The notes below the pieces were generated by a model that did no database searches, was not told the origin of the DNA, and saw only the letters and a program-made list of their open reading frames with translations. Both the position numbers and the translations under genes were made by a program. A stretch of DNA of 64,000 nucleotides, taken from NCBI GenBank assembly GCA_031280435.1, contig JAITGS010000010.1, positions 1 to 64,000 of the forward strand. The letters run 5' to 3'. Below are positions 5,270 to 62,032 of the stretch, one piece after another (within the stretch, counting starts at the first letter, position 1; every line of letters starts with the position of its first letter). The stretch is from Tannerellaceae bacterium (GTDB lineage Bacteria; Bacteroidota; Bacteroidia; Bacteroidales; Tannerellaceae).

Positions 5270-6240
5270 CACTATTTCCGTCGCAAGCCAAACTAACGTC
5301 GGTTTGGCTCAAATATTCTATCCGCAAGCAAAACCGACGCAAGTTTGGCGCCATGTTTTATACGCGGGCCAAACCGACGCAAGTTTGGCCCAAAATTTAT
5401 TTCCGCAAGCCAAACCGACCTTAGTTTGGCTCAAAATTTATTTCCGCGGGCAAAACCGATGTTAGTTTTTTATCAATTCTATTTTTTCGGGCAAAACTGA
5501 TGTTAGTTTTGCTCAAAAAAATTTTCCGCGGGCAAAACTGATGTCGGTTTTGCTCAAAAAAATTTCCGCAAGCCAAACTGACGTCAGGCTGGCGCCAGGT
5601 TTCTTCCGTAAGCAAAACCGACGTCAGGCTGGCGCCAGGTTTCTTCCGTAAGCAAAACTGACGTCAGGCTGGCGTCAATTTTCTTCCGCAAGCCAAACTG
5701 ACGTCAGGCTGGCGTCAATTTTCTTCCGCAAGCCAAACCGACGTCAGGCTGGCGTCAATTTTCTTCCGTAAGCAAAACCGACGTCAGGCTGGCGCCGAGT
5801 TTCTTCCGCAAGCCAAACCGACGTCGGTTTGGCTCAAAATTTATTTCCGCGGGCAAAACCGATGTTAGTTTTTTATCAATTTTATTTTTTCGGGCAAAAC
5901 TGATGTTAGTTTTGCTCAAAAAAATTTTCCGCGGGCAAAACCGATGTTAGTTTTTTATCAATTCTATTTTTTCGGGCAAAACTGATGTTAGTTTTGCTTA
6001 AAAAAATTTTCCGCGAGCAAAACTGATGTCGGTTTTGCTCAAAAAAATTTTCCGCGAGCAAAACTGACGTCGGTTTGCCTCCAAAAAAATTTCCGCAGGC
6101 CGGCCCGACGTCAGGCTGGCGCCAGGTTTCTTCCGCAAGCAAAACTAACGTCGGTTTTACTCAAATTTTCTTAGTGGAGCCAAACTGACGTCGGTTTGGC
6201 TTTGATTTTTTCCGCGGGCCAAACCGATGCAAGGCTGACC
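5270..6240. repeat. Array R1: about 24 tandem 40-41-bp units with palindromic core AGCCAAACCGACGTCGGTTTGGCT and TTTTCCGCAAGC-type linker
   Basis: Core starts at 5541, 5581, 5621, 5661, 5701, 5741, 5781, 5821 etc.; unit-by-unit alignment by eye. Confidence 0.92.
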
Positions 6241-11630: not shown

Positions 11631-11975
11631 CAACGGCACGATAAACAAGCGTTCCGGTTTCGCGACGTTCAAACGGCACGATAAACAAGCGTTTAGCTTT
11701 CGCGACGTTTAAACGGCACGATAAGCAAGCGTTTAGCTTTCGCGACGTTTAAACGGCACGATAAACAAACGTTTAGCTTTCGCGACGTTTAAACGGCACG
11801 ATAAACAAGCGTTTAGCTTTCGCGACGTTCAAACGGCACGATAAACAAGCGTTTAGCTTTCGCGACGTTCAAACGGCACGATAAGCAAGCGTTTAGCTTT
11901 CGCGACGTTTAAACGGCACGATAAACAAGCGTTTCATTGTCTCGCCGTTGTAACGGCACGATACTTAAACGTTTT
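11631..11975. repeat. Array R2: about 9 units of exactly 40 bp (AAACGGCACGATAAACAAGCGTTTAGCTTTCGCGACGTTT)
   Basis: AACGGCACG recurs at 11631, 11671, 11711, 11751, 11791, 11831, 11871, 11911, 11951. Confidence 0.95.
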
Positions 11976-19654: not shown

Positions 19655-19978
19655 CTTTCCGGAGGCCATCTAAGTCCTTAGATGGGCTGAATTTTTTTTC
19701 CGCAAGCCATCTAAGTCCTTAGATGGGCTGAATTTTTTTTTCGCAAGCTATCTAAGTCCTTAGATGGGCTGAATTTTTTTTTCGCAAGCTATCTAAGTCC
19801 TTGGATGGGCTGAATTTTTTTTTCGCAAGCTTTCTAAGTCCTTGGATGGGCTGAATTTTTTTTCCGCAAGCTATCTAAGTCCTTAGATGGGCTGATTTTT
19901 TTTTTCGCAAGCTTTCTAAGTCCTTAGATAGCTTGAATTTTTTTTCCGCAAGCCATCTAAGTCCTTAGAGGGGCCGAC
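19655..19978. repeat. Array R3: 8 units of exactly 41 bp, dyad core ATCTAAGTCCTTAGAT with TTTTTTTCCGCAAGCC linker
   Basis: TAAGTCCTTA at 19671, 19712, 19753, 19794, 19835, 19876, 19917, 19958 (TTGG/TAGA variants). Confidence 0.96.
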
Positions 19979-25486: not shown

Positions 25487-25608
25487 GGGAACTTCTGATA
25501 ATTAGATTTTTCAAGGCTTGCGACGGAGGCAAAAGCGGAGTGTACTTTAGTACATGAGCATTTTGCCGACGGAGCGAAACGCAGAAAAAGCAATTAGTAG
25601 ACGTTCCC
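25487..25608. mobile_element. 122-nt MITE-like symmetric hairpin element
   Basis: Termini GGGAACTTCTGATAATTA / TAATTAGTAGACGTTCCC-type inverted repeats; inner GGCAAAA..TTTTGCC and TGTACT-TT-AGTACA; centre at 25547.5 equals the arithmetic midpoint. Confidence 0.6.
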
Positions 25609-25939: not shown

Positions 25940-26338
25940 TCTGCATAGAAATCACCTCCCGCCGGCCGGCCCGAAACCGTAGCTGCGCAGCAAGAGGTTC
26001 CCTCAGCCGCAATAGAAGCCATAGCTGCGCAGAAATGTATAGCCGCAAGCCTTTTTGAGGCGATTTCTGCGCAGCAAAAGCCTCCCGCAGGCCTTTTTGA
26101 GGCGATTTCTATGCAGCAAAAGCCTCCCGCAAGCCTTTTTGAGGCGATTTCTGCGCAGCAAAAGCCTCCCGCGGGCCTTTTTGAGACCTTTGTTGCGCAG
26201 ATATGCCTTCCCGCAAGCCGGAACGAAGCTTTTGTTGCGCAGAAATGTATAGCCGAAGGCTCAAACGAAGCCCTTGCTGCGCAACAATTATCTCCCGAAG
26301 GGCAGACCGAAGCTTTTGTTGCGCGGCAAGGGGCATAA
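25940..26338. repeat. Array R4: about 9-10 units of 42 bp containing CTGCGCAG palindrome and CCCGCAAGCCTTTTTGAGGC
   Basis: Motif GCAG/GCRR at 25987, 26029, 26071, 26113, 26155, 26197, 26239, 26281, 26323 (42-bp steps). Confidence 0.93.
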
Positions 26339-31799: not shown

Positions 31800-31888
31800 T
31801 GCCGCATTTATCTGCCAGTACTGCCGCATTTATCTGTGAGTACTGCCGCATTTATCTGTGAGTACTCGCAGATTTATCTGAGCGTATG
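31800..31888. repeat. Array R5: about 4 units of 22 bp (TGCCGCATTTATCTGTGAGTAC)
   Basis: Unit starts at 31800, 31822, 31844, 31866; followed by inverted AGATAAATCTG. Confidence 0.88.
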
Positions 31889-36335: not shown

Positions 36336-36478
36336 AGCTGCTCCGGCAAAAGCTCTACCTTTTGTTGCACATTCAGCTCCGCCGCGATAATATCCGCCCC
36401 CATTGCCGGACTGTCAACGGCTTCCTCTAAATAGATGGCGATATTGCCATGATGGAAATGGGCTGCGTAAATGTAGTT

Positions 36479-36532
36479 CGCTCGAACAATAGGTCATTCC
36501 CGCCTTCGCGGGAATGACCTGTCTTTCGAGCG
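36479..36532. mobile_element. Small palindromic element (REP/MITE-like, GTCATTCCCGCcttcGCGGGAATGAC class)
   Basis: CGCTCGAA-5nt-GGTCATTCCCGC-CTTC-GCGGGAATGACC-5nt-TTCGAGCG. Confidence 0.7.
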
Positions 36533-36565
36533 CAACCTGCTTTTTGTGCACGTTCATAGAATGTT

Positions 36566-36945
36566 ATTCCTTCCGACAAATCGCTGGAGCCGTTGCCATG
36601 ATGGAAATTCCTTCCGACAAATCGCTGGAGCCGTTGCCATGATGGAAATTCCTTCCGACAAATCGCTGGAGCCATTGCCGTAATGTAAATTCCTTCCGAC
36701 AAATCGCTGGAGCCATTGCCGTAATGTAAATTCCTTCCGACAAATCGCTGGCGATATTTACGGTCTGTAAATGGCTCGCGACAAATCGCTGGCGATATTT
36801 ACGGTCTGTAAATGGCTCGCGACAAATCGCTGGAGATATTTACGGTCTGTAAATGGCTCGCGACAAATCGCTGGAGATATTTACGGTCTGTAAATTCCTT
36901 CCGACAAATCGCTGGAGCCGTTGCCATAATGGAAATGGGCTGCGG
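36566..36945. repeat. Array R6: 9 units of exactly 41 bp, constant linker CGACAAATCGCTGG with at least two different cores
   Basis: CGACAAATCGCTGG at 36574, 36615, 36656, 36697, 36738, 36779, 36820, 36861, 36902. Confidence 0.96.
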
Positions 36946-38420: not shown

Positions 38421-39503
38421 CTAATCTAATGCGAAGGCAACGATTGCGTTCTCGGCAAAGGATTTGCCTCCCATTTGCCTTATCCGTATGCTGTTGCCTG
38501 CTAAGGAAAGTCCGCGCACGTCGCCTATGCTATATTCAAAGCGAACAGGGTCGGGCGTTGTATTTTTCATTACGAGATAGCCGCTTATGATGTTCTTACC
38601 CGGATATGCCCGTCCGGATATCAGGTAGTTGTTCCCCACGTAGTAGTTTGGGTTGAAGTTGCTTTCTCCTACTTTGATTAGGGTGCTTTTGACCCAGAGC
38701 CGGTCGCTAATCTGTCCTCCGTCTATCAGTACGTGCATGGTTACCATGACGAACCATTTTCCGGGAGGCAGTGTGATGAAGGTTCCTGCTCCGTGCCAGC
38801 TGTTCCAGTCGGAGGGCTTGAGCATGGTTCCCGTATCCGACATTTGCGTGGGCGGGGAGGTTCGCAGGGCATGGTTGTTTTGCCAGGTGCCTACTCCGTT
38901 ATCATCGGCTATGATGATTTTGCCTTCGCCGGGCTGTCCGTGTGTGTAGAGCAGCAGGTTGGTGAGGCTGACGCCTGTGGCGAGGTTCAGCTCTCCGGAG
39001 CCGTCGAAGCTGATGGCATGCCCGTTGGTGTTGAAGCTCATGTCTTTTGTTAGCGAGCCTCCTATGTGCAGGGAGTCGTTGATGATGGTGAGGCCGTTGC
39101 CGGCTCCGTAGGCAAATCCCCAGGAGTTCTCCCAGCGGCTGCCGTTCCAGCTATAAACGCCGGGGCTGAAGATGCTGTTGCTTGTGAGGTTGTAGACGGT
39201 AAGGCCGGCGTGGGTTTCCTTGATCCTGCTGCTTGAGTTGTCAATCCAGTCCGGGTCGGTGATGGCGATGAAGGGTTCGAGCGTGGCGGTATCCTTCAGC
39301 ATTACTCTGGTGAGCATCAGCCCTCCCTTGTCGGAGGTGACGTTGGCAGGGTCGTTGGCCGAGGCCGGATTGGCTGCGTCCTGTGTCCTGAGCTCGAGTA
39401 TGGCGGCACGTGCGGAGCGGCTGTCGGAGCCTATTGTTACCTGTGCCTCTGCGGCTATTATAGAGCCTGCTGTTGCAATGACTGCAAGAAGTATATGTTT
39501 CAT
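38421..39503 (-). CDS. Secreted fibre-like surface protein, paralog 1 of 3
   Basis: Signal peptide; VTIGSDSRSARAAILELRTQ..., GGLMLTRVMLKDTATLEPFI..., C-terminal FITLPPGKWFVMVTMHVLIDG...ENAIVAFALD. Confidence 0.7.
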   Translation of the reverse strand: MKHILLAVIATAGSIIAAEAQVTIGSDSRSARAAILELRTQDAANPASANDPANVTSDKGGLMLTRVMLKDTATLEPFIAITDPDWIDNSSSRIKETHAGLTVYNLTSNSIFSPGVYSWNGSRWENSWGFAYGAGNGLTIINDSLHIGGSLTKDMSFNTNGHAISFDGSGELNLATGVSLTNLLLYTHGQPGEGKIIIADDNGVGTWQNNHALRTSPPTQMSDTGTMLKPSDWNSWHGAGTFITLPPGKWFVMVTMHVLIDGGQISDRLWVKSTLIKVGESNFNPNYYVGNNYLISGRAYPGKNIISGYLVMKNTTPDPVRFEYSIGDVRGLSLAGNSIRIRQMGGKSFAENAIVAFALD

Positions 39504-39540
39504 CTTAATCTCTGCTGTTATCATTTAAGCGAAGCTTTGC

Positions 39541-40662
39541 TTATTGTACGAGCGCAAAGGCTACGATTGAGTTTTCGCCTGCATTGGCGCTGCCGTAGGA
39601 GTTTACGTATGCGCTGTTGGAGGCGCTTGGCCGTATCACTACTACCTTGTTGACTTTGTAGGTATAAGAGACGAGGCGGTTCTCAGGGTTCTCTATTATG
39701 ACGAATCCGCTTATTACATTGTAATTGTCATATATATGCCCTGAGATAGTTGTGTTGTTGCCCACGAAGATGCTCTTGTCTAAAACGTCGGCGTCTTCCT
39801 TATAGAACGATGATTCAACCCAGAACCTGCCCTGGCTGGTGCCGTTGATCACTGATGCGAGCATGGTGACCACTACGAACCATCGTCCCTTGGGCAACTG
39901 TATGGTTGCTTTGGTACTTCGCAGGTCGGAATTGCTGCTGCCCAGATCTACCCTCACGCCGTAGTAGTCTAATGTTGCTATGGGTGCGGCAGAGGGGCTG
40001 ATGTTATCCTCCCAGACGGCATTGCCGTCGGCGTCCGACATGATCACCCGGTTCTTGGCGTACGCAGAGCCTGTATACCGCAGTTCGCCGCTGAGCCTTA
40101 CGGGCACTGCAACCTCTACGGCCTTGCTTCCGCTGATGCCGAACCGATGCACGTCGGTGTTGAAGCTTATCGGCCGGCTGAGTTGCTCGCCGAGCCCTAT
40201 TTTGCCGCCGCCGTCCGCCATGAGCCCGTGTCCGACGGCTATGGGAGGCCTGTGGGAGGCCATCCACCGGTCGCCGTTCCATGTGTAGACGCCCGGCCTG
40301 AAGGGAGCCCGGTTGCTGATGTTATACACCATCATTCCCGCATGCATCTCCTTAAGCCGGGTAGAGGCGTTGTTTTGCCAGTCGGCGTCGGAGGTAGCGA
40401 TGAAAGGTTCGAGCGTATACCGGTCGAGGAGCTTCACCCTGGGCAACAGCAGGCCGCCCGTCACGGAGGATACATTGAGAGGGTCGGTTGCGCCGGGCGG
40501 ATTCACCGCATCCATGCTTTTGAGGTCGAGCAGAGCCGCACGTGCCGGAAGGCCGCCCGAACCTATGGTGACCTGGGCATGCAAGGCTCCGCCGACGGCC
40601 GTCAGAGCGCAGCAGACTATGACTGTGGCGGCAATCAGGCTACATCTGTTTCTTACATTCAT
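39541..40662 (-). CDS. Secreted fibre-like surface protein, paralog 2 of 3
   Basis: VTIGSGGLPARAALLDLKSMDAVNPPGATDPLNVSSVTGGLLLPRVKLLD...ENSIVAFALVQ. Confidence 0.7.
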   Translation of the reverse strand: MNVRNRCSLIAATVIVCCALTAVGGALHAQVTIGSGGLPARAALLDLKSMDAVNPPGATDPLNVSSVTGGLLLPRVKLLDRYTLEPFIATSDADWQNNASTRLKEMHAGMMVYNISNRAPFRPGVYTWNGDRWMASHRPPIAVGHGLMADGGGKIGLGEQLSRPISFNTDVHRFGISGSKAVEVAVPVRLSGELRYTGSAYAKNRVIMSDADGNAVWEDNISPSAAPIATLDYYGVRVDLGSSNSDLRSTKATIQLPKGRWFVVVTMLASVINGTSQGRFWVESSFYKEDADVLDKSIFVGNNTTISGHIYDNYNVISGFVIIENPENRLVSYTYKVNKVVVIRPSASNSAYVNSYGSANAGENSIVAFALVQ

Positions 40663-40686
40663 ACGTATATATATATAAGGTGTGTG

Positions 40687-41895
40687 TTACTGTTCCACCA
40701 GAGCGAAAGCCACTATGGTGTCCTCCTCCCAATGCGAGCTCCCGAATCGGTCGAACGGGATAGGGTCGCTGATGCTTACCCGCCCAAGCTCTACTTCTCC
40801 GAAGTGATACCTGAACTTGACGGACGAGCTTGTTGCATTGTTTATAATCACATACCCGCTTATGGTTACAAAGCTCTTATACAGGCGCCCGGAGATAAGG
40901 CTGTTATTGCTGTCGAAGTATACAGGGTTCGGGAGGCTTTCGTTTTCGGCAATGAAAGTGGTTCGCAGCCACAGCCAGTCCTCGTCCTGAAGATTAGGCT
41001 GGTCGATGCTGGAGCGCATGGTTACCATCACGAACCAGCGTCCGGGCGGGAGCATAATATAAGCATTGGTGTCCTTCCAGTTGTCGGCGCCCACGTAGTC
41101 GCGCAGGTCAACATTGGCCGAGAGGCCGGCACCGTCGGCGGTGAAAACAGCCGTGGGCGTCGGAGGCAGCGAAGCCTGAGGCTGCCAGGAAGCATATCCG
41201 TAGCGGTCGGACATGAGCAGCTTGCCCTCGCCCTGGTTGCCGTCCACATATTTAAACGTACCGGAAATAGTGAGGGGAGTGGCTATCCTGACTTCGCCCT
41301 GACCCGCCAGCGTCACCGTCCTGCTGTTGTTGTCAACCGAAACCGTCCGCGTCAGAGTCCCGCCAAGCTCCACAATGCTGTCCGCCAAGGTCAGCCCGCT
41401 GCCCACGTCAATGTTGCTTGAGGCCACCAGCCGCCAAAGGTCGCCCGTCCAGCTATAAACTCCGGGGACGAAATAGGCATCGGAGGTGAGATTGTAAACG
41501 CAGAGGCCGGCATGCGTCTCCCTTATAGCCGCAACGTTGCCCGCCCAGTCCGGATTGGCCTCCGGGATGAAAGGCTCGAGCGTAGTAGGGCTCACAAGGC
41601 GCACGCGCGGCAGCAGCAGGCCACCCTTGGTAGAGGTAACATTCGCATCATCACTCACCGAGGATATATTATCCCTGTCGGCGCTTTGCGATTTCAGCTC
41701 CAGCAAAGCCGCCCGCCCCGCATCGCTCGCAGAGCCAATCACCACCTGAGCCGCCGCAGCATAAGGCATAGCCGTGAGAACCAGCATAGCGCACAGCCCG
41801 GCAAGGTGGCGCTTACAGAGATTGTCGGCCGGCGCCCCTGTTACCGGGCGCCTGCCTTCAATCAGAAAATGGAGAGTGATTGCTTTGGCGTTCAT
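40687..41895 (-). CDS. Secreted fibre-like surface protein, paralog 3 of 3
   Basis: VVIGSASDAGRAALLELKSQ...GGLLLPRVRLVSPTTLEPFIPEANPDW...EDTIVAFALVEQ. Confidence 0.7.
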   Translation of the reverse strand: MNAKAITLHFLIEGRRPVTGAPADNLCKRHLAGLCAMLVLTAMPYAAAAQVVIGSASDAGRAALLELKSQSADRDNISSVSDDANVTSTKGGLLLPRVRLVSPTTLEPFIPEANPDWAGNVAAIRETHAGLCVYNLTSDAYFVPGVYSWTGDLWRLVASSNIDVGSGLTLADSIVELGGTLTRTVSVDNNSRTVTLAGQGEVRIATPLTISGTFKYVDGNQGEGKLLMSDRYGYASWQPQASLPPTPTAVFTADGAGLSANVDLRDYVGADNWKDTNAYIMLPPGRWFVMVTMRSSIDQPNLQDEDWLWLRTTFIAENESLPNPVYFDSNNSLISGRLYKSFVTISGYVIINNATSSSVKFRYHFGEVELGRVSISDPIPFDRFGSSHWEEDTIVAFALVEQ

Positions 41896-42092: not shown

Positions 42093-42270
42093 GGGCATTT
42101 ATCGATCCCCCGCCTTAGCATTTATCGATCCCCTGCCTTACCGTTTATCGATCCCCTGCCTTAGCATTTAGCGATCCCCTGCCTTACCGTTTAGCGATCC
42201 CCTGCCTTAGCATTTAGCGATCCCCTGCCTTACCGTTTAGCGATCCCCCGCCTTAGCATTAACCGACGCG
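42093..42270. repeat. Array R7: about 8 units of exactly 23 bp, alternating GCCTTAGCATTTAKCGATCCCCT and GCCTTACCGTTTAKCGATCCCCT
   Basis: GATCCCC at 42104, 42127, 42150, 42173, 42196, 42219, 42242. Confidence 0.96.
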
Positions 42271-45090: not shown

Positions 45091-45372
45091 GGGAGGCCGG
45101 CACAACGATGTTCCGGCGTCAGATCAAAAATATTGGGGCCGGCACAACGTTGTTCCGGCGTCAGATCAAAAAATTTGGAGCCGGCACAACGTTGTTCCGG
45201 CGTCAGATCAAAAAATTTGGAGCCGGCACAACGTTGTTCCGGTGTCAGATCAAAAATTTGGAGCCGGCACAACGTTGTTCCGGGGCCAGATCAAAAATTT
45301 GGAGCCGGCACAACGTTGTTCCGGGGCCAGATCAAAAAATTTGGAGCCGGCACAACGATGTTCCGGGGTAAA
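45091..45372. repeat. Array R8: 7 units of 41-42 bp, near-perfect 22-bp palindrome GCCGGCACAACGTTGTTCCGGC plus GTCAGATCAAAAAATTTGGA linker
   Basis: GGCACAACG at 45099, 45141, 45183, 45225, 45266, 45307, 45349. Confidence 0.96.
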
Positions 45373-61716: not shown

Positions 61717-62032
61717 TCCCCGAAATGTTTTTGAGTGTTCCCGAAATGTTTTTGAGTGTCCCCAAAATGTTTTTGAGTGTCCCCAAAATGTTTTTGAGTG
61801 TCCCCAAAATGCTTTTGAGTGCCCCAAAATGCTTTTGAGTGCCCCCAAAATGTTTTTGAGTGTCCCCAAAATGTTTTTGAGTGTCCCCGAAATGATTTTG
61901 AGTGTCCCCCAAATGCTTTTGAGTGCCCCCAAAATGCTTTTGAGTGTTCCCAAAATGCTTTTGAGTGTTCCCAAAATGCTTTTGAGTGCCCCCGAAATGT
62001 TTTTGGGGACACTCAAAATGCTTTTGAGAACG
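61717..62032. repeat. Array R9: about 14-15 units of 21 bp (CCCCAAAATGTTTTTGAGTGT)
   Basis: GAGTG at 61733, 61754, 61775, 61796, 61817, then 61837 (one 20-bp step), 61858, 61879, 61900, 61921. Confidence 0.95.

Follow-up and report, generated by a model that had tools for sequence, protein, structure and literature searches.

Period-locked intergenic tandem arrays with unrelated unit sequences in a Tannerellaceae genome

Intergenic tandem arrays in the genome of a Tannerellaceae gut bacterium fall into two narrow period classes, 40–42 bp and 21–23 bp, independently of the sequence of their units and with a tolerance of about ±1 bp. Palindromes are enriched and conserved within the units, and the distances between palindromes follow a quantum of about 20.5 bp. 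These regularities are shown by our data. Our reading of them, that the arrays form a class built from modules of about 20.5 bp whose neighbouring palindromes are kept about two or four turns apart, stands close to a coin toss (probability of roughly 0.45). Bacterial tandem repeats are usually treated as sequence families of arbitrary unit length; here, in some 4% of the DNA sampled and across one bacterial family, it is length that is kept and not sequence. A physical question thereby becomes testable, namely what gauges a DNA length of 20.5 or 41 bp in the cell, and period combined with palindrome spacing offers a way to find elements that homology searches miss. The full-text literature searched, which did not cover subscription papers, yielded no account of Bacteroidales arrays locked in period.

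A 41-bp array with mosaic units

The array at 36566–36936 (+ strand) of the window, by which we mean the whole 64,000-nucleotide stretch of DNA analysed, contains nine units, each with a head CGACAAATCGCTGG, a mosaic core with a 6-5-6 dyad and an interchangeable tail. The heads start at 36574, 36615, 36656, 36697, 36738, 36779, 36820, 36861 and 36902, all steps being 41 bp, and Tandem Repeats Finder (TRF) reports 36566–36936 with period 41, 9.0 copies and 0% indels; both confirm the original prediction, made from sequence alone, of nine copies exactly 41 bp apart (36574–36902). Its further claim that the core switches type mid-array holds as described, the order being AGCCGTTGCCATGATGGAAATTCCTTC, AGCCATTGCCGTAATGTAAATTCCTTC, (C/A)GATATTTACGGTCTGTAAAT followed by GGCTCG or TCCTTC, and then back to AGCCGTTGCCATAATGGAAAT. 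As a refinement, the two main core types are not unrelated: a 6-5-6 dyad occupies one position in both, reading ATTTAC-GGTCT-GTAAAT in one and, with one mismatch, ATTGCC-ATRAT-GGAAAT in the other, of which a perfect version, ATTGCC-ATGAT-GGCAAT, is present at locus L004. The 6-bp tail (TCCTTC, GGCTCG, CTGTTC or GGCTTC) is swapped as a separate module, as is the head (CGACAAATCGCTGG or CTCTAAATAGATGG), so that units of this family are mosaics of head, dyad core and 6-bp tail whose modules are exchanged between copies.

The related core reported outside the array (about 36438–36467) is itself a 5′ unit of the same array, cut off by an interspersed element. The outlying 5′ units (36403–36467, + strand) comprise a degenerate core followed by a unit whose head is the alternative CTCTAAATAGATGG (36425–36438) and whose core, GATATTGCCATGATGGAAAT, ends in GGGCTGCG; the 5′-most units at other loci (C71, C107, C10 and C3) also have a CTCTAAATAGATGG-type head. 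Between the outlying unit and the array lies an internally shortened copy of a short interspersed element (approximately 36468–36565, + strand), which carries the palindrome GGTCATTCCCGCCTTCGCGGGAATGACC at 36492–36519 and has many copies in the genome. The interspersed element with palindromes ATTCCCGCCTTCGCGGGAAT is also found at L004, at L005 and in many other contigs, and, within 41-bp-family arrays, repeatedly sits at one particular junction (after ...GGGCTGCG).

The array is flanked upstream by a gene of the Cu-oxidase_4 family (PF02578; 35529–36335, + strand) and downstream by a gene of the Lnb family (PF13387 and PF25221; 37161–38321, + strand), this being the sole locus looked at for neighbours. 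Next to the Lnb gene lies a tandem of three minus-strand genes similar to one another (38421–41895), with apparently more copies in a relative, G018 (C152, 2174–13308).

The periodicity is far above chance: the same unit family occurs in at least seven other contigs of the genome, always at 41 bp, and the period is common to dozens of unrelated arrays. An exact 41 bp characterizes this family; periods of 40 or 42 bp are found in other arrays, so the tolerance is about ±1 bp.

Two period classes across the genome and its relatives

The genome that contains the window (hereafter G000) is a fragmented Tannerellaceae MAG of 3.06 Mb in 143 contigs, 83% complete, and the nearest named relatives found for it are MAGs of Tannerellaceae, along with Parabacteroides and Tannerella. 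Our survey of 691 kb, about a quarter of this genome, returned 107 tandem arrays (about 155 per Mb, 3.8% of the DNA), with a period of 40–42 bp in 84, of 21–23 bp in 19 and of another length in four (one of 33, two of 63 and one of 146). The 84 arrays of the 40–42-bp class represent 44 unit families with unlike consensus units; cyclic identity between families is below 66%, and shuffled units reach at most 54%. At L144 (9191–11038), arrays of 63-bp period resemble protein-coding leucine-rich repeats (21 aa).

Four of the 107 arrays overlap called genes, and arrays typically lie a few hundred base pairs from genes. The gaps that bear them are tandem in 29 cases, divergent in 21 and convergent in 10, as judged with gene calls from a simple script with a rough gene caller; all three orientations being occupied, a terminator or promoter role inferred from gene orientation was rejected. 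Carriage by a fixed mobile element was rejected as well, with an interspersed repeat at most 60 bp away in 29 of the 107 and most flanks unique. Nor is the 41-bp period a doubled sequence repeat of 20.5 bp, as no identity peak exists at lag 20–21; the half-unit signal of the 41-bp units is in dyad position and not in sequence.

Unit length is held tightly. Anchor-to-anchor spacings between units are 40–42 bp in 458 of 466 cases and 39–43 bp in 465, the one exception being 35 bp. Alignment of units to their consensus gives 1,463 mismatches and 170 indel events (ratio 0.12), all of 1–2 bp and 166 of them of 1 bp, whereas alignments of an interspersed element from that genome, taken as the control, show 239 indel events against 1,385 mismatches (ratio 0.17), including 73 events of 2–6 bp, 39 of which are of 3–6 bp. 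With an ordinary rate of single-base indels in the arrays, larger ones are nearly absent there and numerous in the control; larger changes therefore do not persist. The ±1-bp changes resemble ordinary slippage, about half falling in short homopolymer runs (26 of 47 length changes between neighbouring units are in runs of at least three identical bases). Small length changes thus arise freely and larger ones are not retained, which shows, as a length rule, that length is constrained and not merely inherited. The original prediction had taken strict length as evidence for either a constraint on spacing or a copying mechanism that preserves length, an inference now supported by a rule that holds across the sampled part of the genome.

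A comparison with relatives had been set beforehand as a test, and it gave no refutation. Other Tannerellaceae genomes place 62 of 69 arrays in the 40–42-bp or 21–23-bp class. G072 is excluded from this tally; this genome, of isolate quality, has few arrays, mostly of other periods, which shows that TRF does not force arrays into the two classes. Array density is patchy between relatives. Of 28 genome loci with an Lnb orthologue, 6 have arrays in the 1.5 kb upstream of that gene and none has any downstream, and further upstream arrays were found at named loci, including those of Parabacteroides goldsteinii and P. faecalis. The period of every Lnb-upstream array is 21, 22, 41 or 42 bp, and by eye their units are unrelated, apart from one locus listed twice. 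The gap orthologous to the one that holds the 23-bp array at 42095–42260 of the window contains, in G018, a 42-bp array of an unrelated unit, and a named isolate scaffold of Tannerella forsythia OH1426 carries a 41-bp array. An interspersed element of about 120 bp at 25487–25608 of the window is common to G000 and G018, with about twenty copies in the latter that are 75–95% identical.

Palindromes and the 20.5-bp quantum

Palindromes are enriched in the units and conserved within them. The best-dyad score of 41-class units averages 12.75, versus 8.84 for shuffled units, and reaches at least 12 in 59.5% of 41-class arrays; several 23-bp arrays are without a good palindrome. Strong dyads (score 12) are found in 30 gap-free arrays, compared with 6 when columns are permuted, and variation per site in those arrays is 0.052 in the dyad arms and 0.099 elsewhere (permuted ratio 1.02 ± 0.35). 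Two dyads are present in 14 of the 44 families, against 2.2 expected, and in 8 of these 14 the dyads lie 19.5–21 bp apart, which is half a unit (24% expected). The idea that compensatory base changes prove hairpins was rejected: compensatory double changes within arrays number 6, against 36 over six slid controls (6 per control), and are not in excess.

The spacing of palindromes is also seen where unrelated DNA lies between them. In G018, the region upstream of the Lnb orthologue contains six palindromes of the TCCACA..TGTGGA type that follow one another at +41, +50, +41, +41 and +41 bp, separated by spacers that are only 12–50% identical. Similar decayed strings of palindromes occur in G000 (L141 at 9971 and L150 at 17136, about 41 bp) and in the relative G016 (L193 at 10816, 22 bp), where the palindromes CGCCATATGGCG and CGCCAATTGGCG differ yet stay palindromic. 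A test across all sampled genomes, restricted to pairs of non-coding palindromes whose arms are alike but whose flanks differ and which lie over 300 bp away from any array (n = 20), shows distances in multiples of about 20.25–20.5 bp (R = 0.66, P = 0.004, period scan accounted for). The 10.25-bp harmonic is weak in this test (n = 20), so the quantum is two turns and not one. A coding origin of the palindrome distances of 63–66 bp was rejected, the signal remaining after an open-frame filter.

AT-rich dinucleotides inside the 41-bp units of G000 arrays recur at about 13.7 bp (41/3), with lags of 14 and 27 (z about 3.3).

Proposed mechanism, rival explanations and known systems

In the model that we propose, a module would be about 20.5 bp, or about two turns of DNA, many modules containing a palindrome. 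One module amplified in tandem would give the 21–23-bp class, and two different modules the 40–42-bp class. Unit number and sequence would turn over fast, through slippage or unequal recombination and through the swapping of modules among dispersed copies; only copies whose neighbouring palindromes keep a distance of about two or four helical turns would survive. The most likely cause is that palindromic sites must share one helix face for a dimeric DNA-binding protein or proteins, forming a regular protein–DNA structure; by analogy with BIMEs (PMC2817692), its role could be in nucleoid organization, supercoiling or insulation. Helical phasing as the cause, the bound protein and the cellular role are all inferred. 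Dimeric protein is the simplest putative reader, and none has been identified; the number of unrelated palindromes suggests that a reader would be sequence-tolerant or that several proteins would be involved.

Several observations speak against the model. Spacings of about 31 and 52 bp would be equally allowed by pure helical phasing, yet they are not seen; cumulative phase drifts in arrays of 40 and 42 bp; a good palindrome is absent from some units; no single sequence-specific protein can be expected to serve the 44 unrelated palindromes found in one quarter of the genome; and the AT-rich recurrence of about 13.7 bp in 41-bp units is not predicted. A bolder reading, which we consider more doubtful than the phasing model, is that hundreds of sequence-unrelated intergenic palindrome strings, quantized at about 20.5 bp, reflect an undescribed organizing principle of Bacteroidales chromosomes. 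If true, such strings would keep arising anew in the same places, which implies a chromosomal protein system that reads structure and tolerates differences in sequence.

Two alternatives remain possible, both with clearly lower confidence than our model and the first slightly ahead of the second. Under measured copying, an enzyme or a replication process would duplicate DNA in steps of about 21 or 41 bp, turning whatever intergenic stretch it met into an array of that period, a mutational ruler without selection on spacing; Cas1–Cas2, which sets spacer length, is an analogue. A period independent of sequence, a ruler-like spread of ±1 bp, the lack of any special position relative to gene orientation and the patchy density between relatives all fit. 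However, palindromes are still 41 (or 22) bp apart where the spacers are unrelated, and a ruler acting only at birth would not keep them in place; for this reason, we favour the spacing constraint over the copying mechanism. Further, variation in dyad arms is half that of the remaining sites, 26 of the 47 ±1-bp changes lie in homopolymer runs of at least three as in ordinary slippage, and neither Cas1 nor Y1_Tnp/RAYT was found in G000 (83% complete). Alternatively, each unit may fold, as RNA or as single-stranded DNA, into one or two small hairpins, acting as a cruciform, transcript end or slippage substrate without a sequence-specific protein, the module of about 20.5 nt being hairpin plus linker. 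The many unrelated palindromes of similar layout and the L193 palindromes that differ and remain palindromic agree with this, and it would explain the coexistence of 44 families. Against it, compensatory double changes are not in excess, the ±1-bp tolerance is tighter than hairpin linkers should need, the CCAC/GTGG arms in G018 are kept with unrelated spacers, and the window arrays match no Rfam family, a search of the window having returned tRNAs only.

Descent of ordinary VNTRs from one founder, an ancestral 41-bp repeat that spread and diverged with its period merely inherited, is very unlikely. Some families are clearly dispersed copies (that of the 36566–36936 array is at eight or more loci) and motifs such as CCGCAAGC are common to some families, but the 44 families have less than 66% cyclic identity to each other, length kept without larger indels over such divergence still needs a constraint, and the same quantum appears in 21–23-bp arrays and in other species. 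An artefact of short-read metagenome assembly can be all but ruled out: although contigs C48 and C124 end inside arrays, and 21 and 41 resemble common k-mer sizes, the arrays avoid genes, their units carry substitutions and ±1-bp changes, periods of 40, 41 and 42 bp coexist within one assembly, and arrays are present in named isolate scaffolds, such as that of T. forsythia OH1426.

Among known systems, the arrays resemble REP/BIME elements in being extragenic, dispersed, palindromic, mosaic and variable in copy number, with many copies in regularly spaced groups. BIMEs and REPs bind gyrase, IHF and Pol I (PMC2817692), and in Stenotrophomonas BIMEs the inter-REP segment varies substantially in length (PMC2817692), whereas the array period is locked at 40–42 or 21–23 bp. 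Dozens of unrelated palindromes take the place of one or a few families, and the units are head-to-tail direct repeats, not of alternating orientation. No match to RAYT (Y1 transposase, PF01797) was found in G000, an absence that is not absolute at 83% completeness, and the REP foot tag is not general, since GTAG occurs in only 3 of the 44 unit families and CGTC in 11, whatever their place in the unit; on these grounds and that of direct orientation, REP/BIME identity was rejected. The decayed arrays look like CRISPR in having palindromic repeats with unrelated spacers of similar length, but the repeat is only about 15 bp and degenerate, and intact arrays repeat the whole 41 bp; with cas1 (PF01867) also unmatched in the 83%-complete G000, CRISPR was rejected. 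Plasmid replication iterons (such as those of 22 bp) and centromere repeats (such as the 20-bp parC repeats) are direct repeats phased for protein binding. The 20.5-bp quantum similarly places repeats about two helical turns apart; unlike iteron and centromere arrays, those described here number about 155 per Mb and have unrelated unit sequences. VNTRs and minisatellites are likewise head-to-tail and intergenic with copy number varying between loci, but here unit length falls into two narrow classes regardless of sequence.

TRF finds ten arrays in the window, with periods of 40, 40, 41, 42, 42, 22, 41, 23, 42 and 21 bp. Besides the array at 36566–36936, these are a complex array of periods 40–41 (multiples 81, 82 and 120) at 5302–6100, an unrelated 40-bp unit in 8.3 copies at 11632–11963, a 41-bp unit with dyad ATCTAAGTCCTTAGAT in 7.8 copies at 19656–19974, two adjoining 42-bp arrays at 26043–26324, a 22-bp array of 3.7 copies at 31800–31880, the 23-bp array of 7.2 copies at 42095–42260, a 42-bp unit with palindrome GCCGGCACAACGTTGTTCCGGC in 6.5 copies at 45096–45366 and a 21-bp array of 14.9 copies at 61717–62028. 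The motif CCGCAAGC / GCTTGCGG and runs of 7–8 A/T recur across otherwise unrelated unit families, at 5564–5825, 19656–19974, 26043–26219 and in other arrays, as if one half-unit module had been reused.
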